34,727 nt of DNA from a virus. The stretch is taken from positions 1-34,727 of IMG/VR virus record IMGVR_UViG_3300005436_000023; one strand, given 5' to 3'. The notes under the pieces are model-generated. The model was not told where the DNA came from and did not search any database. It saw nothing but the letters and a program-made list of their open reading frames with translations. Within the stretch, counting starts at the first letter, position 1; each line of letters opens with the position of its first letter. The position numbers were made by a program, and so were the translations under genes. Below are positions 261 to 19,565 of this stretch, in pieces.

Positions 261-261
261 T

Positions 262-444: not shown

Positions 445-478
445 GCTAAAGTCTCCAAATAAAAAATAATTTAACTGT

Positions 479-694: not shown

Positions 695-696
695 AA

Positions 697-906: not shown

Positions 907-946
907 TAAGTCCTTTCGTAAAATTCACTTATTTAATAGCTTAAAA

Positions 947-961
947 TTATGATAATCATAA
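947..961. promoter_or_regulatory. Perfect 15-base palindrome, probable operator of the leftward promoter
   Basis: TTATGAT-A-ATCATAA: two perfect 7-base arms around a central A, overlapping the -10 of the leftward promoter. Binding here would occlude RNA polymerase. The XRE repressor at 1083-1430 or the Cro-like protein at 1682-2023 are the natural candidates. The assignment is inferred. Confidence 0.65.
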
Positions 962-977
962 ATATTATTATTGTCAA
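949..977 (-). promoter_or_regulatory. Leftward early promoter (PL-like)
   Basis: On the minus strand this reads TTGACA (977-972), 17 bases, then TATCAT (954-949), nearly consensus sigma-70. Transcription would start near 942 and enter the gene starting at 906 after a leader of about 36 bases. A perfect palindrome (947-961) covers the -10, as expected for a repressor-controlled phage early promoter. Confidence 0.8.
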
Positions 978-1036
978 GTTTTTTTTAAAAAAAAATTTAA
1001 AAAGTTGCTATTTTTATTTTCGATTATTTTTTAGAT

Positions 1037-1072
1037 AAAAAAATAGCCCTAAAACATTGAGTTAAAGGGCTA
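1037..1072 (-). terminator. Intrinsic terminator after the repressor gene
   Basis: An inverted repeat TAGCCCT/AGGGCTA (1044-1050 and 1066-1072) is followed on the minus strand by seven T (1043-1037). It lies just past the repressor stop codon and separates repressor transcription from the leftward early operon. Confidence 0.85.
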
Positions 1073-1082
1073 TATTTACAGA

Positions 1083-1430
1083 TTAAGCTTTTTGTATTGC
1101 TTTAATTAAAATATCTTTCCAGTTTGGCAAAATAGATTTGATGTTTTCAAAATCTAAGTTCCCATCATTTATATTGTTATATTCTTTTTTATTCAATGAT
1201 ATAGACATCACAGTATTATGATCTAGTTTCAGAATATTTGATATTTCCAGTATTTTTCTGGGCATATCATTTACTCCGGCCTCTATTTTCGATAGAGCGG
1301 ACTGTGACATTCTGACTTTTTCAGCCACATACTTCTGAGAAAGCCCCATTTTTTTCCTTGTAAACTTTATTAATTCTCCTGCACATCTATAATTTACGCT
1401 GGGGGTTGTGTATCGTGATAATTGTTGCAT
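1083..1430 (-). CDS. XRE-family transcriptional repressor (cI-like)
   Basis: A 115-residue DNA-binding protein with a helix-turn-helix of the XRE type spanning roughly residues 15-70: the CAGELIKFTRKKMGLSQ helix is followed by YVAEKVRMSQSALSKIEAG, the classic recognition-helix pattern. The open frame extends 57 codons further upstream to 1601, but that extension is hydrophobic and crosses the promoter region. The ATG at 1430 has a GGAG ribosome-binding site 8 bases ahead, so it is chosen. It is transcribed opposite to the Cro-like gene and ends at a clear terminator, which is the cI position of a temperate phage. There is no C-terminal LexA-type peptidase domain, so RecA-dependent self-cleavage is not expected; induction must use another route. 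Confidence 0.85.
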   Translation of the reverse strand: MQQLSRYTTPSVNYRCAGELIKFTRKKMGLSQKYVAEKVRMSQSALSKIEAGVNDMPRKILEISNILKLDHNTVMSISLNKKEYNNINDGNLDFENIKSILPNWKDILIKAIQKA

Positions 1431-1551
1431 GATTTTTCTCCAATATAGTTTAATTTTGATGAAGTCAATTTTATTAAATAAGCTCACAGTAACGTTTGAT
1501 CCAGCGATTTTTGAGCTTATAACCCAGGCAATTAAAAATTGACTTAAATAT

Positions 1552-1580
1552 AATATAAAGCATACATAAAAATATCGCAA
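1552..1580 (-). promoter_or_regulatory. Repressor promoter (PRM-like)
   Basis: The minus strand reads TTGCGA (1580-1575), a 17-base spacer, then TATATT (1557-1552). The start would be near 1545, giving the repressor message an unusually long leader of about 115 bases. It faces away from the rightward promoter at 1609-1637. Confidence 0.6.
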
Positions 1581-1608
1581 GTTTTTTAAAATCTTTCGCA
1601 CAGAGGGG

Positions 1609-1637
1609 TTGCGCTACTTGATTTTAATCAATATAAT
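1609..1637 (+). promoter_or_regulatory. Rightward early promoter (PR-like)
   Basis: TTGCGC (1609-1614), exactly 17 bases, then a perfect TATAAT (1632-1637). Transcription would start near 1644, some 38 bases before cro. The spacer holds an operator-like dyad. The -35 is weak (3 of 6), which the consensus -10 may compensate. Confidence 0.7.
1618..1631. promoter_or_regulatory. Dyad TTGATT-N2-AATCAA in the PR spacer, probable operator
   Basis: A 14-base inverted repeat with 6-base arms fills most of the gap between the -35 and -10 of the rightward promoter. Very similar dyads occur at 8629-8642 and 19513-19526 ahead of late genes, so this may be the target of a shared regulator rather than only of the local repressor. 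Confidence 0.65.
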
Positions 1638-1681
1638 ATTCCTTTTGTAAAACCCTTCCTAAAAACTTTATGAGATGAACC

Positions 1682-2023
1682 ATGAGCCTTAAGTCTGAAA
1701 AGTTTCCTCGTCAAAAACGACCACTTATTGATGCAATCATCAGATGTGTAAATATCACCAGATTTGCCAAGTCAATTGGCGTTAGCCGTCAAGTAGTAAG
1801 CGGATGGCTTTATAACTCAAAATATGCTCCGCCTCCACAATATTGCAAAAAAATTGAAGAAGCTACGATGGGACATGTGACCAGGGAGCAGTTAAGGCCT
1901 GATATTTTTGGCGCAACAGACGAAGAATCTCTTTCTGAAAAGCAAAAGATTACAGCCTGCATTTCCATACTGGAAAGCGTAAAAGATAGCTTGGGAAATA
2001 AGAAAAACAAAGGTAATAAATAA
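1682..2023 (+). CDS. Cro-like / YdaS-family DNA-binding regulator
   Basis: A 113-residue protein. Residues about 13-75 match the YdaS/Cro-like phage fold: RPLIDAIIRCVNITRFAKSI, then GVSRQVVSGWLYNSK as the recognition helix, then PPPQYCKKIEEAT and VTREQLRPDIF, the usual C-terminal signature of this group. It diverges from the cI-like repressor and is first in the rightward early operon, so it most likely acts as the Cro analogue that shuts off repressor synthesis and commits to lytic growth. Its stop overlaps the next start (TAATG), indicating translational coupling with the replication protein. The ribosome-binding site is weak (GAG/GATG just upstream). YdaS is sometimes labelled a toxin; here context favours a regulator. 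Confidence 0.8.
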   Translation: MSLKSEKFPRQKRPLIDAIIRCVNITRFAKSIGVSRQVVSGWLYNSKYAPPPQYCKKIEEATMGHVTREQLRPDIFGATDEESLSEKQKITACISILESVKDSLGNKKNKGNK

Positions 2024-2793
2024 TGGCGTCTGGAAGAATGTTAAGGGCTCAAATTAGCTTGAGTCCACAGGTGAACGACCTTTCAATTAAGGCTGCATTA
2101 TTGTTCACATGGCTAATTCCTCATGTAGATGATTTCGGAAGAATTCATGCTGATCCTCGCCGAATAAAAGCAACAATTGTTCCTATGCGGGACGACATAT
2201 CAGCAAAAGAAATCCCATCATTATTGAACGAGATAGAGGACAAAAGTTTGATCGTTCTTTACCGTGTTGATGGCGATTTTTACCTTCAATTGACCAAATT
2301 TGAGAAGCATCAGCAAGGATTGCACAAAAGAACCATTAGTAAGCTACCTGCTCCTGAAGCCGCGAATTTGCTGGATTCCGGGAAATTCCGGGAAATTCCC
2401 AAAAATTCCCACCCAACAGAACAGGAACAGAACAGGAACAGAACAGAACAAGAACAGAATTTAAAAGCATTGTCGGGCAAGCCCGACGACGCATCTTTTC
2501 AAAAAAAATCTGAGATCAACAAAAAAATCAAAAAAGAGGCCATCGAGATCTTGGAATTTCTCAACCTGAAAGCGGGGAAGAAATTTAGGCAAACTGATGT
2601 CAATCTCAAAATGATTGAAGCCAGATTAAATTCTGGGGCGTCTGTCGAGGAATGCAAAAAAATCATCATTCGAAAAACCAGAGAGTGGATCAATGATTCG
2701 GCTTGGAAAAAATATCTTAGACCAGCAACGTTGTTTAACTTAACCAAGTTTGAGCAGTACATCGGCGAGCTTGTAGTTGTGGAGGAAAATTAA
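2023..2793 (+). CDS. Phage replication initiator (O-like, Phg_2220_C C-terminal domain)
   Basis: A 256-residue protein. The N-terminal part (about 1-115) resembles the winged-helix region of phage replication proteins (MASGRMLRAQISLS, LLFTWLIPHVDDFGR, FYLQLTKFEKHQQGLHKRT). The C-terminal part (about 170-250) has the conserved phage C-terminal domain, with EILEFLNLKAGKKFR followed by SGASVEECKKIII, KTREWIND and KKYLRPATLFN. The linker (about 118-150) is low complexity and is encoded by arrays of short DNA repeats that look like origin iterons, as in lambda O. It would bind the origin and recruit a host or phage helicase. It starts in a TAATG overlap with cro and ends in another TAATG overlap with the zinc-ribbon gene, so all three are one operon. 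Confidence 0.8.
   Translation: MASGRMLRAQISLSPQVNDLSIKAALLFTWLIPHVDDFGRIHADPRRIKATIVPMRDDISAKEIPSLLNEIEDKSLIVLYRVDGDFYLQLTKFEKHQQGLHKRTISKLPAPEAANLLDSGKFREIPKNSHPTEQEQNRNRTEQEQNLKALSGKPDDASFQKKSEINKKIKKEAIEILEFLNLKAGKKFRQTDVNLKMIEARLNSGASVEECKKIIIRKTREWINDSAWKKYLRPATLFNLTKFEQYIGELVVVEEN
2375..2530 (+). repeat. Candidate replication origin: iterons, hairpin and A-rich tract inside the initiator gene
   Basis: Four ATTCC cores occur at exact 10-base spacing (2375, 2385, 2395, 2405). They are followed by tandem 11-base AACAGAACAGG units (2415-2425, 2426-2436, and a partial third at 2437-2446). Next is a perfect inverted repeat GTCGGGC-AA-GCCCGAC (2472-2487), then A-rich sequence to about 2530. 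Helically phased repeats, a hairpin and an easily melted tract inside the initiator gene are the layout of lambdoid origins. Confidence 0.65.
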
Positions 2794-3224
2794 TGTACGG
2801 AAAAATTCAATGTCCAGATTGTGAAAGTTATATTCATCAAACAGTGAAAGAATGTAGCTGTGGGTGGAGACCTCACGCAACACAGAAGATAATTGAAAAA
2901 TTTTGCAAGTGCGGGAAAGAAACAGGTGTATCTAATCTTTGTTGGGAATGCTACGAACCTCTTAGACCAAAAAATGACATTGAACTAAAGTTAGAGGCTG
3001 ACGAAAAAAAAAATAGAGATCAAGCAATCTTGGAGGGATGCGTCACTTCAGAAGATTTTATTAATCATGCAAAACGGGCGTTGGGAATTTCAAGATTTGG
3101 GAAAGAAGTTCTTGATCGTATTTCTCCATTGGGGGAACCAAAGGTTCAGAACCGGATGGCTCATCTTGAACTATCACCTCAAGCCAGGAAGCTGAAGGAT
3201 GAACTTGACGAGAAGCAGAAATAA
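2793..3224 (+). CDS. Zinc-ribbon protein of the replication operon
   Basis: A 143-residue protein with an N-terminal zinc-binding region: CPDC at residues 7-10, CSCGW at 21-25, CKCG at 38-41 and CWEC at 50-53, enough for two zinc sites. The remainder is charged and helical (IELKLEADEKKNRDQA, and a QARKLKDELDEKQK tail). It starts in a TAATG overlap with the replication initiator, so it is made together with it and may be a helicase loader, primase accessory or DNA-binding partner. I do not recognise a named family, and the replication role is inferred from position only. Confidence 0.6.
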   Translation: MYGKIQCPDCESYIHQTVKECSCGWRPHATQKIIEKFCKCGKETGVSNLCWECYEPLRPKNDIELKLEADEKKNRDQAILEGCVTSEDFINHAKRALGISRFGKEVLDRISPLGEPKVQNRMAHLELSPQARKLKDELDEKQK

Positions 3225-3307
3225 AATGTGCAAAAAATCATCAAAACCATTCCGATCGCCTATTTTTAAAATAACGCGTATGACGAAGAATTATTTGCTG
3301 GCCTGTA

Positions 3308-3347
3308 GGGTAGGGTAGGGTATGGGGTAGATCGTCGATTCTACCCC
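3308..3347 (+). promoter_or_regulatory. G-quadruplex motif overlapping a hairpin
   Basis: Four G tracts (3308-3310, 3313-3315, 3318-3320, 3324-3327) with loops of 2, 2 and 3 bases make a textbook G-quadruplex motif on the plus strand. The last tract also starts a hairpin, GGGGTAG (3324-3330) pairing with CTACCCC (3341-3347), which can extend inward as ATC/GAT. The two structures share the fourth tract, so they exclude each other. No T tract follows, so it is not an ordinary intrinsic terminator. Confidence 0.7.
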
Positions 3348-3387
3348 CCATAAGTCGATGTCTCACGGAGGTATTTTTTGGGTATTT

Positions 3388-3412
3388 ATGATTAAAATAT
3401 AACTTTAATCAT
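3388..3412. promoter_or_regulatory. Perfect inverted repeat ATGATTAAA-N7-TTTAATCAT
   Basis: Nine-base perfect arms separated by 7 bases. Each arm contains the half-site (ATGATT/AATCAT) of the dyads seen at 8629 and 19513, only with wider spacing. It lies about 100 bases ahead of the zinc microprotein gene at 3512 and may be an operator or activator site. Confidence 0.55.
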
Positions 3413-3450
3413 ATTTATCAAAAATCAGGCACAATATTTTATGAAAAATA

Positions 3451-3471
3451 ATCATGGATTTTTTTCATGAT
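3451..3471. repeat. Inverted repeat ATCATG-N9-CATGAT
   Basis: Six-base arms with a T-rich 9-base loop, just upstream of the AT-rich possible promoter for the gene at 3512. It could be a regulator site; there is no other evidence. Confidence 0.4.
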
Positions 3472-3511
3472 ATATATAGTATATGATTTTAGTAAAATTT
3501 AAGGGTATAAA

Positions 3512-3682
3512 ATGATGGATATTGAGGAATTAAAGTCTCATGCAGGATCATTTTCAAAAAAATGCGATAGATGTGAAAAATTTAAAAATAAACAAAAATT
3601 TAAAAGATTCAATTCTTTCCATCGTATATGCAATGAATGTTTTTTATCGGAAAGGAGCATTGAACATGAATCAAAAAATTAA
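3512..3682 (+). CDS. Zinc microprotein 1 (C-x2-C-x18-C-x2-C family)
   Basis: A 56-residue protein starting at the first of two adjacent ATGs. The cysteines are C18, C21, C40 and C43, giving C-x2-C-x18-C-x2-C, a zinc-ribbon arrangement, with a basic aromatic segment between the knuckles (KFKNKQKFKRFNSFHRI). The same spacing occurs in the proteins at 4956-5144 and 8420-8611, so the three form one family in this phage. Its 3' end overlaps the next start (3666) by 17 bases. A weak AAGG site precedes the start. Basic residues plus a zinc ribbon suggest nucleic-acid binding; a role as a small transcription activator is possible but unproven. Confidence 0.65.
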   Translation: MMDIEELKSHAGSFSKKCDRCEKFKNKQKFKRFNSFHRICNECFLSERSIEHESKN

Positions 3683-3926
3683 ATTAGTCGTTAAAAACGA
3701 TTTCAATAAAATTAACTTAGAGCAATTGAATTCCGATCATAATGAAATAGTCTCAGATGGAGATGGATATATTCTTGTTTATAGAAATAAAAAAGAGAAA
3801 TCATATTATATAATGTCAAATGGGTTTACAAATGAGGAGGGCGTATATGCCTCTCAATTGATTTGTAATGCAATAATAAATGATAGTAGTGAATTTAATA
3901 ATCGAGGAAAAAACAAAAGTGAGTGA
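3666..3926 (+). CDS. Hypothetical protein
   Basis: An 86-residue protein. The open frame extends upstream to 3540, but that part overlaps the zinc microprotein in another frame and lacks a ribosome-binding site. The ATG at 3666 has AAAGGAG at ideal distance, so it is chosen. The sequence looks like a small alpha/beta protein (KIKLVVKNDFNKINLEQL, GDGYILVYRNKKEKSYYIM). No family is recognised. Its last codons overlap the GTG start of the nuclease gene at 3919, so the two are probably coupled. Confidence 0.6.
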   Translation: MNQKIKLVVKNDFNKINLEQLNSDHNEIVSDGDGYILVYRNKKEKSYYIMSNGFTNEEGVYASQLICNAIINDSSEFNNRGKNKSE

Positions 3927-4245
3927 AACTTTAGATGATCTTCTTTGCTTTCAATTAAAGGCATTAAAAATAACCGGATTTGAAAGAGAGTATCGTTTTC
4001 ATCCTAAGCGTAAATGGAGATTTGATTTTGCGGATGTTGAAAATAAGATTGCAATAGAATGTGAAGGTGGAATTTATTCCGGTGGACGTCATACAAGAGG
4101 TAAAGGATATGAGGGTGATTGTGAAAAATATAATCAAGCAACAATTATGGGATGGAAGATTTTAAGGTATACAAGCAAGTTTATTGCGAATGGAGAAGCA
4201 GTGAATGAGATCAAGCAATTTAAAGATTATTTGGGGATGAGATGA
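3919..4245 (+). CDS. VSR/DUF559-like PD-(D/E)XK endonuclease
   Basis: A 108-residue protein in the restriction-endonuclease-like superfamily, as seen in many phage early regions. The motifs are WRFDFADVENKIAIECEGG (the D and E-x-E of the PD-(D/E)XK core), GGRHTRGKGYEGDCEKYN, and GWKILRYT near the C terminus, as in VSR/DUF559 proteins. The start is taken as GTG 3919 because GAGGA lies about 10 bases ahead and it overlaps the upstream stop region. An ATG at 3880 in frame lacks a ribosome-binding site. Possible roles are Holliday-junction or repair nuclease, or degradation of unmodified DNA. A DNA adenine methyltransferase gene lies one small gene downstream, so a modification/cleavage pairing should be considered. 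Confidence 0.75.
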   Translation: MSETLDDLLCFQLKALKITGFEREYRFHPKRKWRFDFADVENKIAIECEGGIYSGGRHTRGKGYEGDCEKYNQATIMGWKILRYTSKFIANGEAVNEIKQFKDYLGMR

Positions 4246-4427
4246 CTAAAGAAAAAAAGGCAGTTGAAGAGTTTAGACAGAGGTTGATCGAGATATTGAG
4301 TGCGGGACTTGAGTTGAGTTATAAAATATATGCTGTTCAAAACCCAAATAAAGAATATAACGATAGATTTTTGGCTTATATTAATGGTGTTAAAAATTCA
4401 ATTGAAGCCATAAAGGAGATGGAGTAG
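4242..4427 (+). CDS. Small helical hypothetical protein
   Basis: A 61-residue, strongly helical charged protein (EKKAVEEFRQRLIEILSAGLEL, INGVKNSIEAIKEME). The start overlaps the stop of the nuclease gene (ATGA) and is preceded by GGGGATGAG. It sits between the nuclease and the methyltransferase, both closely spaced, so all three are one transcription unit. The function is unknown. Confidence 0.6.
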   Translation: MTKEKKAVEEFRQRLIEILSAGLELSYKIYAVQNPNKEYNDRFLAYINGVKNSIEAIKEME

Positions 4428-4429
4428 CC

Positions 4430-4849
4430 ATGATAGGTCAAAAAACGTTATTTTCTTCAAATTCTGACGAGTGGGAGACGCCGCAATATTTTTTTGATGT
4501 TCTTAATGAGGAGTTTGACTTTAAATATGACTTGGCAGCAAATAAATCTAATGCCAAGTGTGAACAATATATAGATGATGCTTTTAATTTTGACTTTAGT
4601 AGGTGCGTAAGTTATTTCTGTAATCCTCCATATAGTAAATGTAAGGAATTTGTAGAATTGGTATTGGATAGAAATATTAATTGCGTTATGCTTTTGCCTT
4701 CTAGAACAGATACTAAATGGTTCCATGAATTTATTTATAATAAGCCTAATGTAGAAATAAGATTTATAAAAGGACGATTAAAATTTAGCGGCGCAAAATT
4801 TAATGCTCCTTTCCCTTCAATGTTGGCTATATTTAAAAGACAGGGTTAA
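4430..4849 (+). CDS. Phage DNA N6-adenine methyltransferase (Dam family, PF05869 type)
   Basis: A 139-residue protein with the features of the phage Dam family: an N-terminal DEWETPQYFFDVLNEEF (residues 13-29), YDLAANKSNAKC, the catalytic NPPY at 65-68, a LLPSRTDTKWFHE segment near 93, and a C-terminal RLKFSGAKFNAPFPSMLAIF. NPPY marks an N6-adenine (class beta-like) methyltransferase. It would protect phage DNA against host restriction or mark it for its own nuclease. AGGAG precedes the start, which lies two bases past the previous stop. Length is typical for the short phage form. Confidence 0.85.
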   Translation: MIGQKTLFSSNSDEWETPQYFFDVLNEEFDFKYDLAANKSNAKCEQYIDDAFNFDFSRCVSYFCNPPYSKCKEFVELVLDRNINCVMLLPSRTDTKWFHEFIYNKPNVEIRFIKGRLKFSGAKFNAPFPSMLAIFKRQG

Positions 4850-4852
4850 ATT

Positions 4853-4966
4853 ATGATTGAAATTTTAAGTCATACGATCAATATCTCTTTTGGATATTTC
4901 TGTTTTGTATGTGGCCTATGGTTTGCTGTTGGAATGATTTTTGGGGTATTTTTTTATGACCGATGA
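4853..4966 (+). CDS. Single-pass membrane microprotein
   Basis: A 37-residue peptide, mostly hydrophobic (residues about 10-35), ending YDR. It lies three bases past the methyltransferase stop and overlaps the next start (ATG 4956) by 11 bases, which supports translation in the operon. The ribosome-binding site is weak. A transmembrane peptide at this place may affect the host envelope; nothing more specific can be read. Confidence 0.4.
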   Translation: MIEILSHTINISFGYFCFVCGLWFAVGMIFGVFFYDR

Positions 4967-5144
4967 ACCAAAGAAAATAAAATGCTTGCGCTGCCAAATT
5001 GAAAAGCCAAAAAAAGAATATCAAAGAGATAGCAAGGAATATAAAACATGCAATAATTGTTGCAAAGGAGCAGCTATTCTCATTGAGAATTGCTTTAAAG
5101 ATGCAATGAGATTATTTGATCATCCATATAACGGGATAAGCTAA
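4956..5144 (+). CDS. Zinc microprotein 2 (C-x2-C-x18-C-x2-C family)
   Basis: A 62-residue protein with cysteines C10, C13, C32 and C35 (plus C36), giving the same C-x2-C-x18-C-x2-C spacing as the proteins at 3512-3682 and 8420-8611, and a lysine-rich linker (QIEKPKKEYQRDSKEYK). The C-terminal part is helical (CKGAAILIENCFKDAMRLF). The ATG at 4956 is preferred over the in-frame TTG at 4941 because GGGG lies about 9 bases upstream of the ATG. It probably binds zinc and nucleic acid; the exact role is unknown. Confidence 0.65.
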   Translation: MTDEPKKIKCLRCQIEKPKKEYQRDSKEYKTCNNCCKGAAILIENCFKDAMRLFDHPYNGIS

Positions 5145-5146
5145 CA

Positions 5147-5356
5147 ATGAGAACGCCGATACATGTGGCAAGATTAAAAGGAAAAGCAAAAGAATTTTTG
5201 ATATGTGCTGATAAGTTTACACCATATGCTGTTAAACATATTTATGCCACGAAAGATATATTCGATCAATTATTGCAGTCAATATCCCCATCAATCCGTA
5301 ATAATTATATTGATGATATTCCATTTAACGATAAAATAATTATTCCATTGAAATAA
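5147..5356 (+). CDS. Hypothetical protein
   Basis: A 69-residue protein with a basic N terminus (RTPIHVARLKGKAKEFLICADKF). It starts two bases after the zinc microprotein 2 stop and ends just before the promoter of the superinfection immunity gene, so it is the last gene of this unit. No recognised family. Confidence 0.55.
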   Translation: MRTPIHVARLKGKAKEFLICADKFTPYAVKHIYATKDIFDQLLQSISPSIRNNYIDDIPFNDKIIIPLK

Positions 5357-5369
5357 ATTAAAAAAAGTG

Positions 5370-5398
5370 TTGACGCATCGCATGGGATGCGCTACTAT
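5370..5398 (+). promoter_or_regulatory. Promoter of the superinfection immunity gene with internal operator-like dyad
   Basis: TTGACG (5370-5375), 17 bases, TACTAT (5393-5398). An 18-base dyad CGCATC-N6-GATGCG (5374-5391) fills the spacer, so a dimeric regulator bound there would block transcription. The dyad differs from the TGATT-type dyads elsewhere in the window, which points to a separate, possibly host, regulator. Confidence 0.75.
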
Positions 5399-5404
5399 CT
5401 TTGT

Positions 5405-5456
5405 AGGGGTGACAAAAAAGATACCGAAACACAAATATACCGATAGTGTTACCCTT
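5405..5456 (+). promoter_or_regulatory. Leader hairpin with internal ATACCGA repeats
   Basis: GGGTGACA (5407-5414) pairs with TGTTACCC (5447-5454) through one G-U, and the stem can extend by one or two pairs. The 32-base loop carries ATACCGA twice (5421-5427, 5437-5443). The stem begins at about the predicted transcript start and is followed by TTTTAATTT. It could be an attenuator, a stabilising 5' stem or a regulator-binding site. Confidence 0.55.
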
Positions 5457-5483
5457 TTAATTTATGGGAAAGGGGTTATATAA

Positions 5484-5765
5484 ATGTCTCAAGAAATTCA
5501 TGCAATATCAAATACAGTTCAGCATTCTACCGCTCATGGAATCATGGGGTTGATGATGATAATTGGATTCATTGTTTTATATAATCTTCCTTGGATTATA
5601 GCTTTAAAAAGAAAGCTTCCAAATACCTTGGCAATATTTCTTCTTGACTTCTTTTTAGGATGGTCTTTCGTTGGATGGGTTGTGGCTCTGGTTTGGGCTT
5701 GCGCTCATACAGAAGAGAGATCACCGATCAATATTACGCTGAATAATAAGGGGGATATTAAATAA
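5484..5765 (+). CDS. Superinfection immunity protein (T4 Imm-like family)
   Basis: A 93-residue membrane protein of the Imm_superinfect family. Residues 20-40 form the first membrane segment, ending in LPWIIALKRKLPN. Residues 48-73 form the second, with IFLLDFFLGWSFVGWVVALVWA, the family's hallmark. In T4 the related Imm protein sits in the inner membrane and blocks DNA entry of later-arriving phages. A charged tail follows (HTEERSPINITLNN). It has its own promoter with an operator-like dyad and a structured leader, so it can be expressed apart from the early operon, as expected of a gene that acts during lysogeny or soon after infection. The ribosome-binding site is AAAGGGG. It overlaps the next gene by TAATG. 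Confidence 0.85.
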   Translation: MSQEIHAISNTVQHSTAHGIMGLMMIIGFIVLYNLPWIIALKRKLPNTLAIFLLDFFLGWSFVGWVVALVWACAHTEERSPINITLNNKGDIK

Positions 5766-6103
5766 TGGCAGAAATAATTGAAATGACCCAACATTGGGAA
5801 AGATGTAATGGAATTGAAGATAATCGGATGGTTTTATTCTTCTGTGAAGTATGTAATGAATCATTAAGTCTTTTAAGAAAAAAAGATTCAATGTCTGGAA
5901 AGCAACAATTGTCTGAATGGTACTTTGGTGTTCACGAATGCAAGAAAAAAACATCCGAAGAAATAAGTGCTGCGCGCTGTCTTAAGGAAAAAGATGTCCC
6001 TATAACAATATGTGGAAGCTTTGAATGTGATGATGTAGAGATCAGCGTTTTTGATGAAAAGTCTGGAAAAATAATGTCGGGAACATCAAAGGCTATAAGA
6101 TAA
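5765..6103 (+). CDS. Hypothetical cysteine-containing protein coupled to the immunity gene
   Basis: A 112-residue soluble protein starting in a TAATG overlap with the superinfection immunity gene. It has a possible metal site (FFCEVCNES, residues 26-34, and HEC at 57-59). The C-terminal half is acidic with beta-strand character (CDDVEISVFDEKSGKIM). No family is recognised. The coupling suggests that it works with, or under the control of, the immunity gene. Confidence 0.6.
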   Translation: MAEIIEMTQHWERCNGIEDNRMVLFFCEVCNESLSLLRKKDSMSGKQQLSEWYFGVHECKKKTSEEISAARCLKEKDVPITICGSFECDDVEISVFDEKSGKIMSGTSKAIR

Positions 6104-6149
6104 TGATCGGCAAAGATGTATCTGCAATTTAAGCGGGAGAATTTAACGA

Positions 6150-6332
6150 ATGATTAACGAGAAAATTATTTTAAAGTTCTTAAATGAAGAAGTTGATAAG
6201 ATATCCAAAAGAGAATCTTATTATATAGAAAATATTGAAATCGTGAAAGAATGTAAGGTTGCAAAATATGTGTATTTACATCTAATAAAAAAAATAGATG
6301 ATGGATTCTTTAAGGGTGAGTTTGATGTATGA
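6150..6332 (+). CDS. Small hypothetical protein, paralogue candidate A
   Basis: A 60-residue charged helical protein preceded by GGGAG. Its C-terminal part (YVYLHLIKKIDDGFF) resembles the end of the next protein (YVKVYRAILHDIDAGVF), so the two may be diverged tandem duplicates. It overlaps the next start by 4 bases (ATGA). Function unknown. Confidence 0.55.
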   Translation: MINEKIILKFLNEEVDKISKRESYYIENIEIVKECKVAKYVYLHLIKKIDDGFFKGEFDV

Positions 6333-6532
6333 TTGATAAGGAAGATCTTAAGTTTTATATAACTAATAAGCTTCGGTATCATCATAATGCGCTTATGATG
6401 TCTGCGCAAAAAAACATAAAAATTCCTGGCCATCCAAATGATGATGGTGAAATTGCAAATAATATTTTTTGTTATGTAAAAGTATATCGTGCAATTTTAC
6501 ACGATATAGATGCAGGAGTATTTGATAAATGA
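6329..6532 (+). CDS. Small hypothetical protein, paralogue candidate B
   Basis: A 67-residue protein starting in an ATGA overlap with the previous gene and ending in an ATGA overlap with the next, so it lies in a tightly coupled string of small genes. Its C-terminal helix resembles that of the upstream neighbour. Function unknown. Confidence 0.55.
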   Translation: MIDKEDLKFYITNKLRYHHNALMMSAQKNIKIPGHPNDDGEIANNIFCYVKVYRAILHDIDAGVFDK

Positions 6533-6699
6533 AAGTCTACGCAGTTTATTCTATTCCAAAGAGTCCTGAGTATAGGCTGGAAGGATTGTTTAAAAGCAAG
6601 CAATCCGCTAAAAAATTTATTGAAGATGGTGTTTTTAAATGCTGGGAAAATCATAATAAAAGAAAATATGATATCCAAATTGAGACTATACAGGAGTGA
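6529..6699 (+). CDS. Small hypothetical protein
   Basis: A 56-residue protein (MKVYAVYSIPKSPEYRLEGL, then a helical SKQSAKKFIEDGVFKCWE). It is held by ATGA overlap to the upstream gene, and its last codons carry the GGAG ribosome-binding site of the next gene. The beta-hairpin then helix pattern recalls small phage DNA-mimic or nuclease-accessory folds, but no family is recognised. Confidence 0.55.
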   Translation: MKVYAVYSIPKSPEYRLEGLFKSKQSAKKFIEDGVFKCWENHNKRKYDIQIETIQE

Positions 6700-6701
6700 A
6701 A

Positions 6702-6950
6702 ATGACCAGTAAAGAATATGACAGAAATTATAGAATTAATATGCGAAAAAGGGGTTATGTTAGATTAGATAAATGGTGTCCTCTTGAATATAGAAAAATG
6801 ATAAAATCCGTTATTGATGTTCTTTCTTGTCATAAAGAATCACCTGAATCGGCTGTCGAATTCCGCGCAGAAATAAATGGCTTGTGTTCTGCGATTCATG
6901 ATAGGTTTGAGCGGGAGTATAATGTTGAAAATGATAAATCAGTATTTTAA
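6702..6950 (+). CDS. Small basic protein, possible ribbon-helix-helix type (copy 1)
   Basis: An 82-residue protein. The GGAG five bases before ATG 6702 makes that the start rather than GTG 6696. The N terminus (YDRNYRINMRKRGYVRLDKW) resembles the start of small MazE-like/ribbon-helix-helix proteins (R-x-R-M-R-x-x-G-x-x-x-x-x-x-W-V/C-P). The protein at 7301-7483 carries the same pattern. It may bind DNA as a dimer. The family assignment is tentative. Confidence 0.55.
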   Translation: MTSKEYDRNYRINMRKRGYVRLDKWCPLEYRKMIKSVIDVLSCHKESPESAVEFRAEINGLCSAIHDRFEREYNVENDKSVF

Positions 6951-6974
6951 TTTTTTATTGAAGGAGAGAAGTGA

Positions 6975-7280
6975 ATGTTTGAACAAAAAGAGATGAGAAA
7001 TTTGAAAATATGCGCCTCAGTAATTGTCGGGACTTTGGCTCTTACTACATTTTCAGGCGGATTTTATTTGTTATACTGTGACCACATGTTGTCGCATCCT
7101 ACTGATTTTTTTACTGGTGTTGGAATAGCTTTGGGATCTGCTGCAACGATGACTTCAATTGGTTACTGTGCTGTGAAATCAAGATTTTTTAAGCCTGAAG
7201 GGTATCATATTCAACAGAATAATAAATTAACGGAAATATCAGATAAATATGTTATTGCTCCTGCTTCAGGACTAGTTTGA
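6975..7280 (+). CDS. Two-pass membrane protein of unknown function
   Basis: A 101-residue protein with hydrophobic segments at about residues 11-34 (CASVIVGTLALTTFSGGFYL) and 45-65 (FFTGVGIALGSAATMTSIGY), then a soluble tail. AAGGAG precedes the start. Its place in the accessory region near the immunity gene suggests an envelope role such as exclusion, but no family is recognised. Confidence 0.6.
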   Translation: MFEQKEMRNLKICASVIVGTLALTTFSGGFYLLYCDHMLSHPTDFFTGVGIALGSAATMTSIGYCAVKSRFFKPEGYHIQQNNKLTEISDKYVIAPASGLV

Positions 7281-7300
7281 TTTTACGGGACTTTTTTAAA

Positions 7301-7483
7301 ATGAATCAACCAACACAAAATATTAAATCTACAAAAAAACGTAGTGATACCGCAATCCAAAGAATCTGGAAAAACAATTATACAAAAAGAATGAAAGAAA
7401 AGGGCTGGTTCTATTTATGCAGGTGGATAAAGATTGAGAGTAAAGATAAAGCAATAAAGGCTCTTGAAGAGTTAAATCGTTAA
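7301..7483 (+). CDS. Small basic protein, possible ribbon-helix-helix type (copy 2)
   Basis: A 60-residue protein. The frame extends upstream to a TTG at 7277, but ATG 7301 gives a normal N terminus. The segment NNYTKRMKEKGWFYLCRW aligns with RNYRINMRKRGYVRLDKW of the 6702-6950 protein, followed in both by a helix (AIKALEEL / MIKSVIDVL). It is probably a paralogue. DNA binding is inferred only from that resemblance. Confidence 0.5.
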   Translation: MNQPTQNIKSTKKRSDTAIQRIWKNNYTKRMKEKGWFYLCRWIKIESKDKAIKALEELNR

Positions 7484-7500
7484 ATTTATGAGGTATAAAA

Positions 7501-7806
7501 ATGCAGGAGAGACCAGATTTAAGTAAACAGAGAAAAACGATGATAAAATTTCATTCTCAAAATGAAACTCGTCAGATGTTTTTTAATAATCCAGGCAGAT
7601 TTGGCATTCCGTATTCCGCTAGTGAAGAGGCTAAATACGCGGACATATTGGCTATGGAAAATTTTATAAACGGACTTGACAAAAATAATTTTAATAGTTT
7701 GGAATATTTTTATCATATAAAATATATGTTTAAATTTATTCTGGAAATCATTAAGGACTCGAGCGAACCTGATAATCTGAAATGTGATAATAGTTTTTAT
7801 AGGTAA
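7501..7806 (+). CDS. Hypothetical protein
   Basis: A 101-residue protein rich in aromatic residues (NNPGRFGIPYSASEEAKYAD, FNSLEYFYHIKYMFKFILEI). A GAGG ribosome-binding site precedes the ATG. It is probably helical. No family is recognised. Confidence 0.55.
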   Translation: MQERPDLSKQRKTMIKFHSQNETRQMFFNNPGRFGIPYSASEEAKYADILAMENFINGLDKNNFNSLEYFYHIKYMFKFILEIIKDSSEPDNLKCDNSFYR

Positions 7807-7821
7807 CTGAAGGGAAAAACC

Positions 7822-8118
7822 ATGAATCTTTTAAACGAAACCATGAATGACTTAGATGTGCACGGTAAATTTGCTCATGACGTGTGCTTTGTTATGTGCG
7901 ATGATATCTTTATGTCTTTTGAAGATTTCAAAGAATGGGCGAAAGATATAGAATACTATGACGGATATGGAGAATGTCAAATAAGTCTGAAACTTAAGAT
8001 CGTTGGATTAGACTGGTGGTTGGAGCGTACCGAGTATAATGGTAGCGAATGGTGGGCGTTCAAGCAATTGCCCAAAAAACCGAAAACATACGGAAAAATC
8101 GTACTCGTAGCGCCTTAG
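7822..8118 (+). CDS. Phage conserved hypothetical protein (WWLER/EYNGSEWW motif)
   Basis: A 98-residue acidic protein. The block DVCFVMCDDIFMSFEDFKEW followed by LKIVGLDWWLERTEYNGSEWW is, as I recall it, a pattern found in hypothetical proteins of several phage early regions. It is the last gene before the long non-coding stretch at 8119-8419. AAGGG precedes the start. The function is unknown; its acidity would fit a DNA mimic, but that is speculation. Confidence 0.6.
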   Translation: MNLLNETMNDLDVHGKFAHDVCFVMCDDIFMSFEDFKEWAKDIEYYDGYGECQISLKLKIVGLDWWLERTEYNGSEWWAFKQLPKKPKTYGKIVLVAP

Positions 8119-8196
8119 TTTTAAGTATATTTAATGATATACTACATACTCTTGATGTATATAGCTTACAAATGACTCTTCGGAAAGACGAAGTCG

Positions 8197-8226
8197 AAAG
8201 GGGTTATGTGAGGTAGCTCCTTTTTT
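8197..8226 (+). terminator. Probable terminator of the accessory operon
   Basis: AAAGGGG (8197-8203) can pair with CTCCTTT (8217-8223), with one G-U, and is followed by three more T. It sits between the last accessory gene and the tRNA-like element. The loop is long (13 bases), so efficiency is uncertain. Confidence 0.45.
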
Positions 8227-8227
8227 A

Positions 8228-8318
8228 TGGGGGAAAATTAGGAAGTAACGCCACCTCTGTCGGATAGGTACCACCGCTCATGTCCCGTTATGGCTGGGTT
8301 CAACTCCAGCTCCCCCAC
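8228..8318 (+). ncRNA. tRNA/tmRNA-like RNA element
   Basis: TGGGGGA (8228-8234) pairs perfectly with TCCCCCA (8311-8317) as a 7-pair acceptor-like stem. GCTGG (8293-8297) pairs with CCAGC (8306-8310) to form a T-arm with loop GTTCAACT; the GGGTTCAACTCC string is shared with the 3' end of E. coli tmRNA. GTAACG (8245-8250) pairs with CGTTAT (8286-8291) where an anticodon or P2 stem would be, enclosing 35 bases with an ACCT/AGGT hairpin. There is no regular D-arm or 7-base anticodon loop, and the T-loop is one base long. It is thus tRNA-like rather than a normal tRNA: a processed RNA, a tRNA mimic, or the relic of an attachment site. Confidence 0.5.
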
Positions 8319-8380
8319 CCTTTAATTATTTAATTTAAAATCTTAACATATACAAAATATTTGCAATTTCCATTCAGAAT

Positions 8381-8394
8381 ATGATAAAAATCAA
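8381..8394. promoter_or_regulatory. Imperfect TGATT-type dyad before zinc microprotein 3
   Basis: ATGATA-AA-AATCAA, a degenerate match to the dyads at 8629 and 19513, lies 26 bases before the ATG of the zinc microprotein at 8420. It is weak on its own and listed because of the recurring pattern. Confidence 0.35.
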
Positions 8395-8419
8395 CATTGA
8401 TTAATGTCTGGAAATAAAA

Positions 8420-8611
8420 ATGTTGGAAACGATAGCATCGCTACGTAAAGAATGCGTTGAGTGTAAAAAAACATTCCATATCTGCAAATTCAGAAGATTC
8501 TCTCGAATACACCCAAAATGCAACAAGTGCCAATTGATATCTAATATTGATTATCAAAAAAATATGGCCTCTCGTGGTAATAAAATGAGATTTAACAATG
8601 GTGGAATTTGA
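8420..8611 (+). CDS. Zinc microprotein 3 (C-x2-C-x18-C-x2-C family)
   Basis: A 63-residue basic protein with cysteines C12, C15, C34 and C37 (and C22), the same spacing as the proteins at 3512-3682 and 4956-5144. The linker KKTFHICKFRRFSRIHPK is the most basic of the three, and the C-terminal tail is also basic. It is the last gene before the terminase operon and stands alone between two regulatory stretches. That is the position and size expected of a late-gene activator such as P2 Ogr, although its sequence is not recognisably Ogr. GGAA precedes the ATG. Confidence 0.7.
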   Translation: MLETIASLRKECVECKKTFHICKFRRFSRIHPKCNKCQLISNIDYQKNMASRGNKMRFNNGGI

Positions 8612-8628
8612 TTTTTTTATGGTGTAAT

Positions 8629-8679
8629 ATGATTAAAATCATATTTTATGATTGTCAATTGGTTTTGAGCCGTTATAAA
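8629..8679 (+). promoter_or_regulatory. Late promoter region with ATGATT-AA-AATCAT dyad
   Basis: A 14-base dyad (8629-8642) is followed by two readable promoters. One is TTGTCA (8652-8657), 16 bases, TATAAA (8674-8679); it scores best but would start about at the terminase Shine-Dalgarno. The other uses TATGAT (8647-8652) with the dyad in the -35 region, as for an activated promoter, and gives a leader of about 34 bases. Either way the dyad is placed to control the head and packaging operon. Confidence 0.6.
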
Positions 8680-8692
8680 AGAAAAGGCCACT

Positions 8693-9079
8693 ATGCGTCC
8701 ACAGCTTAAGATAACAGATAAAGACAGAAGAGAAATTTTTGAGATGGCATCTCGAGGAATGAGATATGCCGATATTGCGATAATCAAAGATATTTCTTTG
8801 GCAACATTAAAAAGAAGATGCAAGCGTGAGCTTTCGAGAGGCAAAAGAATTGGTATAGATGGTTTGCTTCAAACTGCTTATCACATGGCAAATGATTTGA
8901 AGAATCCGACCATGATGTGCTTTTTGTTGAAGACACAAGGTGGATTGAGAGAAAAGAGTCAAGTCAATATGACTGTCAATGAGAAGAAATCTAAAGAATC
9001 TACAAAGAGAGAAAGCATGCCAAATGATCCAATTTTGGCGGCCAAAACATACAGAGAAATTATTACGAGGACAGATTAA
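8693..9079 (+). CDS. Terminase small subunit (putative)
   Basis: A 128-residue protein with an N-terminal helix-turn-helix (DRREIFEMASRGMRYADIAI then ISLATLKRRCKREL), followed by a helical middle segment and a charged tail. This is the usual make-up of terminase small subunits, which recognise the packaging site and feed DNA to the large subunit. AAAAGG precedes the ATG. It is the first gene of the late operon, with terminase large subunit two small genes downstream, which supports the call. The sequence alone would only say DNA-binding protein. Confidence 0.7.
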   Translation: MRPQLKITDKDRREIFEMASRGMRYADIAIIKDISLATLKRRCKRELSRGKRIGIDGLLQTAYHMANDLKNPTMMCFLLKTQGGLREKSQVNMTVNEKKSKESTKRESMPNDPILAAKTYREIITRTD

Positions 9080-9265
9080 ATGGCCGCTACCGAACTAGCA
9101 GATGATGGGACTCAAATTCCCGTTTATTCAATAGCAATGGCTTTTGCTTATGTATCTGGAAATTTATCAACTATAACGATTCAATATGCGGGAAATACAT
9201 ACGTGCAAACATTTACTTATTCGGGGGCGGACGTCACGAATATCTCGCTATGGGTGAAGCAGTAA
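9080..9265 (+). CDS. Small beta-rich protein between terminase subunits
   Basis: A 61-residue protein of beta character (TQIPVYSIAMAFAYVSGNLS, TITIQYAGNTYVQTFTYSG). It begins directly after the small-terminase stop with GAGGA upstream, and overlaps the next gene's start (TAATG). It looks like a virion-surface or adhesin-like fragment rather than a packaging enzyme. No family is recognised. Confidence 0.6.
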   Translation: MAATELADDGTQIPVYSIAMAFAYVSGNLSTITIQYAGNTYVQTFTYSGADVTNISLWVKQ

Positions 9266-9747
9266 TGGTTAGCGCGGGAGAGTTTTATAAATGGCTCAGA
9301 GTTTTTAAGGTTCCTTTCGGTGGATCTACTGGTGGCGTTACAATCATTGCAGGAACCGGATTAATTGGTGGTGGTTTTGTTCCTCTTGGCGGCGCTGTTA
9401 CTCTTGCGACTGCTGGCGCAGGTTCTTCATTTATTGAGGTGACTGGCACATCTCAAGCAATGGTTTCTAACACAAGCTATTCTACAAATAATGCAGGGCT
9501 AGTAACACTAACATTGCCCACAACTTCAGTTGTAGGAGATCAAATTACCGTTTATGGAAAAGGAGCGGGCGGATGGAAAATAGCTGAAAATTCTGGCCAA
9601 CAAATTATATTGGGAGAATCTTCATCAACACCATCAACGGGAAGCTTGCAATCTACCTATAGATATGATGTTGTTAAATTGACCTGTATTACAGCAAATA
9701 CTCTTTGGACTGCTGTTTCTGAGTCAGGCAATATTTCAGTATTGTAA
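9265..9747 (+). CDS. Fibre/decoration-like protein inserted between terminase genes
   Basis: A 160-residue protein starting at the TAATG overlap (an ATG at 9250 is also in frame). After a short helical N terminus and a Gly-rich segment ([18 protein letters not shown]), residues about 55-160 form a domain seen in tail-fibre and adhesin-like proteins: [54 protein letters not shown] and [20 protein letters not shown]. That domain is normally near C-terminal receptor-binding parts of long proteins, so a stand-alone gene between the two terminase genes is unusual. It may be a head fibre or capsid decoration. It ends in TAATG overlap with terminase. Confidence 0.65.
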
Positions 9748-11339
9748 TGCCAATACCTTTCAAATTCGATTTTAAAAATCCTGATTATGTCAGTGTTTTT
9801 GAATGGAGATTGGAAAGACTAGATAGAATAAAAAAACATCCAGAAAGTATAGGATTTCTATTTCAGTTTTATAGAGATAATCCTGCTCAATTTATCATTG
9901 ACTGGGGAATGACCGCGGATCCAAGAAATGTTGAGCGTGGATTACCTGCCGTCATTCCTTTTATCCTATTTCAAAAGCAAGAAGACTGGGTTCATTGGGT
10001 AATTGAGAGATGGAAGGCACAAGAGCCAGGCATTACTGATAAGTCTCGTGAGATGGGTATGAGTTGGTTATCAGTGGCATTTGCATGCACTATGTGCTTA
10101 TTCAATGATGATTTCGTTGTGGGGTTTGGTTCTCGAAAGGAGGAATACGTCGATAAGATAGGTGATCCAAAATCATTATTCTACAAGGCGCGTCAATTTC
10201 TTTCTTTGCTTCCTTCTGTATTTACGGGCGCGTGGAATCAAAAAACAGATTCGGCTCATATGAGAATTATGCTAAGGCCAACAAACGCCGTTATGACAGG
10301 TGAGGCTGGCGATGGAATGGGTCGAGGAGATAGAACAAGTATTTATTTTGTTGATGAATCATCTCACATACAAAGACCGGAATTAATCGAAGCATCATTA
10401 TCTCAAACAACCAATTGTAGAATTGATATATCAACTCCATTCGGATTGGCTAACCCCTTCGCGCGAAAAAGATTCAGCGGAAACATTCACGTATTTTCTC
10501 TTCATTGGCGAGACGACCCTCGAAAGGATGAAGAATGGTATCAGAAAAAAATAAAAGATATTGATGATCCAATTGTCATTGCGCAAGAAATTGATCTTGA
10601 TTATTCAGCTTCCATGGAGGGAATTGTCATACCGTCAAAATGGGTTGCATCTGCAATTGACGCTCATAAGAAGCTTGGCATAAATGTCAGCGGAATCAGA
10701 AAGGCAGGATTTGATATTGCTGATGCTGGAAAAGATAAAAACGCGTTTTGTGGTCGGCATGGTTTTTTAATAGAGCATATCGAATCATGGTCTGGTAAAG
10801 GTAACGACATATATGCAAGCGTTGAAAAAGTATTTTTTAATTGTGACACTCATGATTACCCTATCGTTTTCTATGATGCTGATGGAGTCGGCGCGGGCGC
10901 GAAGGGAGATGCAAGGGTCATTAATGATAAAAGAAGCATGAATGGAGCAAGAATAATAGAGTTTGAAACATTCAGAGGATCTGGATCAGTTATTGACCCA
11001 GATAAAGAAATGGTAGCTGGAAGAACCAATCAAGACTTTTTTGAAAACCTTAAGGCTCAGGCATGGTGGTCTCTTCGACTTAGATTTCAATCAACATATC
11101 GTGCCATTGAAGAAAATCAACCATATGATATTAATGACATAATTTCAATATCATCTGAATCACCAGAATATATGAAGTTGGTTAGTGAATTATCTCAACC
11201 AACTTTTTGTCAAAGTAAAAACGGTAAATTAATGATTCAAAAAATGCCTGACGGTCAGAAATCACCCAATCACGCAGACGCCGTTATGATAGCATTTTCT
11301 CCTACTAACAGATTGGGCTGGATGAGTGATTATGATTGA
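9747..11339 (+). CDS. terL: Terminase large subunit
   Basis: A 530-residue packaging ATPase/nuclease. Walker A is the variant KSREMGMSW (99-107), common in this terminase group. Walker B with the catalytic Glu is IYFVDESSH (199-207). The nuclease core shows [13 protein letters not shown] (321-333), [11 protein letters not shown] (374-384) and a C-terminal [10 protein letters not shown], which supply the acidic metal ligands of the RNase H-like fold. It cuts and pumps DNA into the prohead together with the portal. It starts in a TAATG overlap with the preceding gene, and its end overlaps the portal start. Length is normal. Confidence 0.95.
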
Positions 11340-19498: not shown

Positions 19499-19512
19499 TT
19501 TTATCCAAAAGT

Positions 19513-19565
19513 ATGATTTTAATCATAATGATTATTATTAACTTTTGAAGAATTTGTGATATATT
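19513..19565 (+). promoter_or_regulatory. Internal late promoter region with ATGATT-TT-AATCAT dyad
   Basis: A perfect dyad with 6-base arms (19513-19526) stands in the only sizeable gap of the late operon. Downstream, TATTAT (19533-19538) or the pair TTAACT (19538-19543), 16 bases, TATATT (19560-19565) can serve as promoter. The dyad-to-promoter layout resembles that before the terminase operon, so tail genes may have their own activated start. Confidence 0.55.

Follow-up and report, generated by a model that had tools for sequence, protein, structure and literature searches.

A family of small proteins with a predicted treble-clef zinc finger, encoded among the early genes of uncultured phages

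The IMG/VR virus record IMGVR_UViG_3300005436_000023, a complete record of 34,727 bases that was analysed over its whole length (the window), contains three small genes, ZA, ZB and ZC, each of which encodes a four-cysteine finger with the spacing C-x2-C-x18-C-x2-C (Table 1). A preliminary description of this DNA had presented them as basic zinc-binding paralogs, and its account of three open reading frames (ORFs) of 56-63 amino acids with identical cysteine spacing was correct in every particular. The calculated isoelectric points of 9.0 for ZA, 8.8 for ZB and 10.0 for ZC agree with the basic character ascribed to the proteins. An alternative TTG start at 4941 would extend ZB to 67 residues. 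Beyond the four finger cysteines there are two more in ZB and one in ZC, and all three frames stop 13-27 residues past the second cysteine pair. When window ORFs of 30-200 amino acids were scanned in six frames for the pattern C..C-x15..21-C..C, ZA, ZB and ZC came up together with one ORF lying antisense to the gene at 19591-21105. As described below, we take the three to be microproteins of one family, each with a single zinc finger of predicted treble-clef fold; the mark of the family is the x18 loop.

The likeness of ZA to both ZB and ZC extends beyond the cysteines, as the suggested paralogy requires. When the cysteines were held and the remaining residues of the 28-residue core were permuted (20,000 shuffles per pair), the score of ZA against ZB was equalled by 75 shuffles and that of ZA against ZC by 77, while the ZB-ZC score was equalled by 2,481, so that direct resemblance between these last two is not significant by itself. 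Pairwise BLASTP E values were 7e-5 for ZA-ZB, 2e-6 for ZA-ZC and 0.04 for ZB-ZC. A hidden Markov model (HMM) of the ZA family built without the window scored ZA at 49.8 bits, ZC at 27.7 bits and ZB at 10.3 bits, and the corresponding ZB-family model scored ZB at 82.3 bits; these held-out scores indicate that ZC is a ZA paralog and ZB a more distant relative. For ZC, it is the HMM match that suggests a real gene. A second contig (3300025939_000096; the twin contig) is 99.7% identical to the window across bases 1-13,447, and is uninformative on selection because ZA, ZB and ZC are unchanged in it.

Relatives were sought by scanning the 2.9 million viral contigs of IMG/VR with a DNA pattern for C-x2-C-x3-K-x4-[FY]-x-R-x7-C-N-x-C, to which ZA and ZB conform; ZC, which sits outside the cassette proper, has F in place of K. 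The scan returned 23 stretches, 10 of which, the twin contig included, carry family members. Among the other 13, two (L115 and L121) encode one different protein of 104 amino acids, one (L116) has a 39-residue ORF, and ten contain no ORF with the motif. Because the pattern demanded x18, this spacing holds by construction in the orthologs that it found, and because it also demanded K, F/Y, R and C-N-x-C, the size and variation of the family are underestimated. The comparison set consisted of ten phages, namely the window and nine relatives (G039-G047). Conserved stand-alone orthologs of ZA occur in six of them (G039, G040, G042, G044, G045 and G047) and of ZB in three (G039, G040 and G047), the latter being the same three that a second scan with the ZB alignment returned in addition to the twin. 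G042 and G045 carry ZA without ZB, and in G044 ZB is broken by an in-frame stop and has lost cysteines. Free-standing homologues thus exist, and not solely the parts of unrelated enzymes that the preliminary description had considered, though a similar finger is fused to phage HNH/EndoVII nucleases (see below). The nine relatives yielded no third gene for an x18 finger, and ZC is seen in this phage only among the ten compared.

In three relatives (G041, G043 and G046) a single protein of 95-107 amino acids contains two x18 fingers. The first finger scored better with the ZA HMM in two of the three and the second better with the ZB HMM, again in two of three; such fusions say that the pair of fingers works as one unit. 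Four relatives have, in addition, a small C4 finger with an x21-22 loop beside or near ZA (G039 25531-25695, G040 17803-17967, G042 6427-6594 and G044 3206-3403), which makes the possession of several finger genes per phage a recurring theme. Between G039 and G044, ZA shows 0.09 nonsynonymous substitutions per site (dN) and 1.11 synonymous ones (dS), and dS exceeded dN in all 10 pairs that could be estimated out of 27, the other 17 being saturated. Orthologs, dN/dS and the held-out HMMs together rule out the reading of ZA and ZB as chance ORFs. An 18-sequence family profile matches all nine relatives, which is no independent test, as their own fingers helped to build it.

Near-relative searches beyond the pattern scan turned up the twin contig alone, and tblastn against cultured phages gave no match better than E 0.8 for ZA, ZB or ZC, no better than E 3 for the ZB of L113 and no better than E 1 for its ZA. 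To cover phages with a related TerL, a profile designated A1 was run on 42 records or genomes, which comprised 31 of the 80 TerL loci from viruses, all 7 of those from bacteria and 4 annotated phages; six matched at E<=1, and the convincing matches were limited to the phages Moabite and Myrna (1.1e-4 for the latter). In 369 bacterial genomes of the class of G038, a set that contained no positive control, there were no matches at E<=1e-4. Among the papers listed from the openly licensed (Creative Commons) PubMed Central literature on small phage zinc proteins, we recognised no account of the ZA/ZB family.

Structure prediction, recommended at the outset, gave an AlphaFold2 model of ZB from 18 sequences with a predicted local distance difference test score (pLDDT) of 82.5, with strands at residues 7-9 and 16-18 and a helix at 33-55 beside Cys32/Cys35. 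ZB is predicted to be a treble clef that continues into a long helix, and the predicted fold supports the proposed C4 zinc site. An earlier AlphaFold model of ZA, from 3 sequences, had a pLDDT of 59.6, and Foldseek returned nothing with it. With the ZB model Foldseek gave the tandem finger of Stc1 at probability 0.94 and E 0.46. The structural matches of ZB were weak and mostly of treble-clef kinds, including PHD and FYVE domains; part of the beta-beta-alpha-Me nuclease Hpy99I aligned with Z 3.2, a root-mean-square deviation (rmsd) of 2.7 and 37 aligned residues. GATA and CsfB chains were absent from the 37 matches listed by VIA-align, which excludes neither.

A treble clef of this size might serve to bind protein, and the three proteins might form small dimers that serve as adaptors or anti-factors, with RNA polymerase, a sigma factor or ClpXP as their target, comparable to CsfB of Bacillus subtilis and the N-terminal domain of ClpX. 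PMC5890618 describes CsfB as a small zinc protein of treble-clef fold that inhibits two sigma factors as a dimer and that is similar to the ClpX domain. As modelled, ZB shares with both a four-cysteine treble clef and a helix after the second cysteine pair, a helix that is predicted to be long, and with CsfB its small size; the ZB model was matched to ClpX-domain chains with template modelling scores of 0.58-0.63 on the target (Z 3.0-3.3, rmsd 2.2-3.0, 39-42 residues aligned), yet with E values of 2.0-3.8. Such scores are low and common to PHD, FYVE and other unrelated treble clefs, and no relation in sequence was found between the finger family and either protein: the Gin/CsfB family is not among the Pfam matches of ZA, ZB and ZC at E<=10, and membership of the ClpX N-terminal domain family was rejected (PF06689 was unmatched in the window and above its cut-off in none of the ten phages). 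We regard an adaptor function as distinctly unlikely.

In sequence, the nearest apparent kin of the family are the finger of phage HNH/EndoVII nucleases and a tandem-finger protein of Moabite-like large phages. The former, an N-terminal C4 finger exemplified by Mycobacterium phage Myrna gp210 and by phrog_2255, phrog_2340, phrog_1035 and phrog_2633, shares the two CxxC pairs and K, F and R in the same places after the first pair, and the N-terminus of gp210 aligned with the family by hhalign at E=2.8e-5 (probability 74). The loop is 22 residues in gp210 as against 18 in ZA, ZB and ZC, which, unlike the nucleases, are complete genes of 56-63 amino acids that have no HNH domain (no HNH Pfam match). 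The 'HNH endonuclease' group phrog_2255 was reached at E<=1 by 7 of 18 family members (best 0.00063) and the 'endonuclease' group phrog_2340 by 9 of 18 (best 0.0023). CPT_Moabite_021 of Moabitevirus and its relatives share two x18 fingers with C-N-x-C (A1 profile 2.7e-7 and 1.5e-4, hhalign E=1.3e-6); the tandem fingers lie in a single protein of 146 amino acids in a 274-kb phage, unlike the separate genes of the window. Proteins of this kind in large Serratia, Pectobacterium, Erwinia and Salmonella phages are annotated 'HNH endonuclease' or hypothetical. The Serratia phage Moabite protein at L005 1522-1962, annotated 'HNH endonuclease', resembles tandem zinc fingers of the ZA/ZB kind.

Other families proved more distant. 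No Pfam model reached its cut-off for ZA, ZB or ZC, their PHROG matches were weak and to groups of unassigned function, and NCBIfam matches of cytochrome c3 and PorD type were discarded as weak, cysteine-driven and far below cut-off. The NinD protein of lambda (PF17466) is likewise a stand-alone C4 protein, of 57 amino acids (seen in L051), but its loop has 19 residues, the hhalign probability was 14, and PF17466 was unmatched by ZA, ZB and ZC. In eukaryotic GATA fingers the R and C-N-x-C-x-L positions align with the family, and the profile matched two-finger GATA chains at E 5e-5 to 7e-4 and a single-finger chain at 0.04-0.05; when the two-finger chains were split into single fingers the values became 0.6-12. 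Permuting the loop columns alone reached the real score in 0, 1 and 1 of 150 cases for three fingers, and permuting all non-cysteine columns did so in 0, 4 and 2 of 150, in both instances with GATA picked after the match list had been seen. The likeness fell to E 0.7 with a ZA-only profile and disappeared with a ZB-only profile, PF00320 matched none of the ten phages at E<=10, and membership of the GATA family was rejected at the model cut-off; the likeness is probably one of shared fold or convergence.

The surroundings of ZA and ZB recur. We compared 46 window proteins (25 early and 21 late, labelled partly by eye) with the nine relatives. In the six that have ZA, the CI-like and Cro-like genes were present in all, the gene for the CxxC-rich protein in five, the replication protein in three and the o5147 partner gene in five (by tblastn). 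Late proteins had a match in the nine relatives in 3 cases out of 21, confined to two phages: TerL (25% in G047, 23% in G046), the 26521 protein (25% in G046) and a lysozyme-like protein (74% in G047). Other phages combine the early cassette that holds ZA and ZB with late genes unlike those of the window, and since early genes are shared and late genes mostly are not, the finger genes travel with the early cassette.

The partner gene o5147 is a constant companion: all nine relatives have a homologue on the downstream side of their finger gene or finger cluster (detected by tblastn in five, by HMM in the three fusion phages, and by eye plus alignment in G044). It directly follows a finger gene in the window, G040, G041, G043 and G044, in the last after the broken ZB; elsewhere one ORF (G039, G046) or two (G047) intervene, or it lies about 2 kb after ZA (G042, G045). 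An o5147 HMM built without the fusion phages picked out this gene as its best match among all ORFs of G041, G043 and G046 (E 1.6e-10, 1.4e-9 and 5.8e-22), adjoining the fusion gene in two of them and one ORF further in the third, which places the two-finger genes in a matching position. In seven of the nine relatives the same cluster contains a VRR-NUC gene above the Pfam cut-off, and in the window and G043 a phrog_503 gene stands in its place; G047 has a DnaB-type gene between ZA and ZB. The structure of VRR-NUC proteins is reported to resemble that of Holliday-junction enzymes (PMC4103454). In the twin contig, two genes (L004 914-1747 and 1749-2657, both on the minus strand) that together occupy bases 1-260 of the window and the DNA to the left of its first base look RecT-like and YqaJ-exonuclease-like by eye, labels that would fit a recombination cassette. 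The twin also lacks a 15-base stretch, 800-814, within the minus-strand ORF 697-906.

Table 1. Features of the window that bear on ZA, ZB and ZC
Feature	Position	Strand	Remarks
CI-like helix-turn-helix repressor	1083-1601	-	PF01381 E=4.8e-9
Dyad TTGATTTTAATCAA	1618-1631	.	abuts TATAAT upstream of Cro-like gene
Cro/YdaS-like repressor	1682-2023	+	PF15943 E=4e-16
Replication initiation protein	2023-2793	+	phrog_428 E=1.1e-27
CxxC-rich protein, conserved ZA neighbour	2793-3224	+	homologue before ZA in 5/6 ZA relatives, not G045
TACCCCCCATAAGTCGAYG element	3342-3360	+	19 bases, precedes ZA
Three TATGATT half-sites upstream of ZA	3387, 3407, 3482	+, -, +	region 3387-3488
ZA (copy 1)	3512-3682	+	56 amino acids, C-x2-C-x18-C-x2-C finger
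phrog_503 gene between ZA and ZB, weakly DUF559/endonuclease-like	3880-4245	+	phrog_503 E=6.5e-40; PF04480 16.7 bits (cut-off 20.6)
Dam-type DNA adenine methyltransferase, just before ZB	4430-4849	+	PF05869 E=7.8e-23
TATGATT half-site upstream of ZB	4852-4858	+	
ZB (copy 2)	4956-5144	+	62 amino acids, C-x2-C-x18-C-x2-C finger, then C-terminal helix (predicted)
o5147 partner gene, directly after ZB	5147-5356	+	69 amino acids, 'TPIN..KLS' family; no Pfam/PHROG match
ZC (copy 3)	8420-8611	+	63 amino acids, C-x2-C-x18-C-x2-C finger, ZA-like paralog
Dyad TATGATTAAAATCATA	8628-8643	.	before first late-type gene
Dyad TATGATTTTAATCATA	19512-19527	.	before sheath-like gene (label by eye)

The Dam-type gene that directly precedes ZB raises the thought that the finger proteins counter restriction in the manner of Lar, next to a methylase of the phage's own. 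PF14354 (restriction alleviation protein Lar) was matched at E<=1 by 2 of the 18 family members, with a best E of 0.0011, and the Myrna finger protein matches the 'Lar-like' group phrog_5558 at 8e-8. Neither of the two members is ZA, ZB or ZC, however, a dam homologue was detected in just two of the nine relatives, and profiles of cysteine-rich proteins match one another readily; the chance that this is the function seems very small.

The sequences show that the family includes two conserved orthologous groups, ZA and ZB, that its genes recur at a set place within an early cassette which is itself mobile, and that two-finger versions occupy a matching place. They also show a similarity, weak but seen repeatedly, to the finger at the N-terminus of phage nucleases of the HNH/EndoVII type. 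Our tentative preference, held at somewhat less than even odds, is that ZA and ZB are DNA-binding accessory fingers of a replication/recombination cassette that act with the nearby nuclease and o5147. The four cysteines of each finger are predicted to hold one zinc, and the long helix predicted for ZB would be suited to pairing. ZA and ZB may bind DNA and act together as accessory subunits of the replication or recombination machinery, with the nearby nuclease (of VRR-NUC or phrog_503 type) and the o5147 protein as putative partners, and they would then do in trans what the HNH/EndoVII-fused finger does in cis. ZC would be a ZA-type duplicate, so far of this phage only, whose place by the late region may mean an altered role.

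Several observations weigh against an accessory role in DNA processing. Treble clefs bind DNA, RNA or protein, and neighbourhood is weak evidence for function because regulators and DNA enzymes occur side by side in the early regions of phages. No previously studied member of the family was found. ZB is dispensable in G042, G045 and G044, which lack it or carry it broken. The putative nuclease partner is not constant: neither a VRR-NUC match (best E 0.94) nor a gene of the phrog_503 type was found in G047, the phrog_503 protein matches nuclease-like Pfam families below cut-off only, and its scores with a VRR-NUC HMM are poor (E 0.09 for the window protein and 0.008 for that of G043). The correspondence of fused to separate fingers is imperfect, in that finger 2 of G043 is nearer to ZA than to ZB and finger 1 of G046 fits both poorly. 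The ZB model had no Foldseek match at E<=0.001 and no structural match at Z>=5, and the two top entries of its structural alignment look unrelated. Finally, a search with phrog_2340 over the ten phages matched three of them but, even at E<=10, nothing in the window.

The preliminary description had taken the three proteins for a possible new class of phage transcription factor, and regulatory-looking DNA does lie near them. The sequence TATGATTNNAATCATA occurs exactly at 8628 and 19512 and nowhere else in the window, ahead of both late operons, with dyad centres 57 and 71 base pairs (bp) before the start codons. Its half-site TATGATT occurs 16 times in the window, 10 of them in 2,513 intergenic bases (at 954, 3387, 3407, 3482, 4852, 8628, 8637, 8647, 19512 and 19521), that is, three ahead of ZA, one ahead of ZB, three ahead of the first late-type gene, two ahead of the sheath-like gene and one at 954. 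Shuffling gave a mean of 1.26 intergenic sites, and none of 1000 shuffles reached 10; these counts rest on a hand-drawn gene map, and an automatic map places 11 of 16 between genes. The cluster is possibly a phage-specific regulon. In such a scheme at least ZC would activate the late genes from the TATGATTNNAATCATA dyads in the manner of P2 Ogr, and ZA and ZB would act at the other TATGATT promoters. On the plus strand the first late dyad lacked a sigma-70 match and the second had a single one, of 9-of-12, both ZC and the late dyads are found in this phage only among the ten compared, and the slight resemblance of the family to GATA fingers would suit a regulator.

The parallel with Ogr of P2 and Delta of P4 (PF04606) lies in a small zinc protein and in dyads placed at similar distances before late genes. 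Ogr has the cysteine spacing C-x2-C-x22-C-x4-C, from which ZA, ZB and ZC differ. In the P2-like phage phiRSY1 (PMC5694545), putative Ogr sites lie at -50 to -90 and a sigma-70 promoter is absent; the similar distance of the window dyads favours regulation of the late operons. The Ogr-type dyad given there, TGTTGT-N13-ACAACA, differs from theirs. PF04606 matched nothing in the window at E<=10 and exceeded its cut-off in none of the ten phages, membership of the Ogr/Delta family was rejected on that basis, and the earlier remark that the proteins do not look like Ogr therefore stands.

Whether ZA and ZB read the dyad is a different matter. An exact copy is present in none of the nine relatives, and the single match with one mismatch is in G042. 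The dyad is missing from these phages even though ZA persists in six, which makes it unlikely that ZA and ZB read it, and as early-cassette genes near a nuclease and a partner gene they do not bear out the proposed class of transcription factor; it is more likely that they help to handle DNA than that they switch on late genes. ZC, which lies 81 bp ahead of the first late-type gene, does have the position claimed for it before the late region, but no counterpart of the gene was found in the nine relatives. The AT-rich intergenic DNA also tempers the half-site excess, as some 7-mer reached 10 in 1 of 200 shuffles, and the likeness to GATA fades with single-group profiles. We consider a role in transcription, with at least ZC as a late-gene activator, unlikely. 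The region 8229-8319, before ZC, has the look of a tRNA-like T-arm and acceptor; ARAGORN found 0 genes there and Rfam none that was credible.

The phage's own repressors offer another reader. The 12-bp core TGATTTTAATCA, on either strand, is exact at 1619, 8630 and 19514 and nowhere else in the window, and the first of these sites lies between the divergent CI-like and Cro-like genes and abuts TATAAT, so that the same core touches an early promoter next to a repressor gene, a place proper to a repressor operator. The dyads may be operators of a CI/Cro-type repressor that shuts early and late promoters in the lysogen, with the zinc proteins unrelated to them, and to this we assign an even chance. 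A comparable arrangement may exist in G039, where 7 of 16 copies of the early-operator half-site TTGTCAA are intergenic (p 5.5e-4), four of them beyond the CI/Cro gap. Set against this, the outer bases of the window dyads are not the same, being TT/AA in the early dyad and TA/TA in the late ones, and among the relatives, some of which carry other repeated intergenic elements, G044 and G047 have elements that differ from the palindrome in their CI/Cro gap. CI/Cro or ZC could be the dyad reader, and the phage repressor appears to be an equal or better candidate than the zinc proteins. Two similar small proteins with homologues in the relatives (6696-6950 and 7277-7483), possibly ribbon-helix-helix by eye, are further candidates.

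A scheme that joins these strands would see ZA, ZB, ZC and the x21-22 fingers as modular one-finger subunits, kept as separate genes or fused into proteins of two or three fingers. Every finger would contribute further contacts to DNA, and ZC would be the newest copy, co-evolved with the TATGATT dyads to activate the late operons. No example of a phage late activator derived from a GATA-like treble clef was listed in the literature searched, and we think this scheme very improbable.

ZA itself is preceded by a conserved element. A scan of the viral contigs found TACCCCCCATAAGTCGAYG exactly in only four of them (G042, G044, G047 and the window's twin), always upstream of ZA; no exact copy is in G039, G040 or G045. 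The distance to ZA is 36-40 bases in three and 151 in the window, where the longer gap contains the three TATGATT sites and G-rich repeats lie ahead of the element. An RNA structure at TACCCCCCATAAGTCGAYG found no support (z -1.9 to 0, no covarying pairs in 4 sequences).

Annotation readily overlooks genes of 50-60 codons or leaves them 'hypothetical', and the three proteins of the window belong to a largely unnamed family that lies in the early cassette of several uncultured phages, near DNA-cutting enzymes. With its orthologous groups, fusions, recurring partner gene and conserved upstream element, the family constitutes a concrete, testable unit. If ZC does act as a late activator, a zinc protein other than Ogr would hold that job. 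The similarity described here points to a free-standing form of the finger that phage HNH/EndoVII nucleases carry fused, and such a form might account for other small C4 proteins encoded in the early regions of phages.

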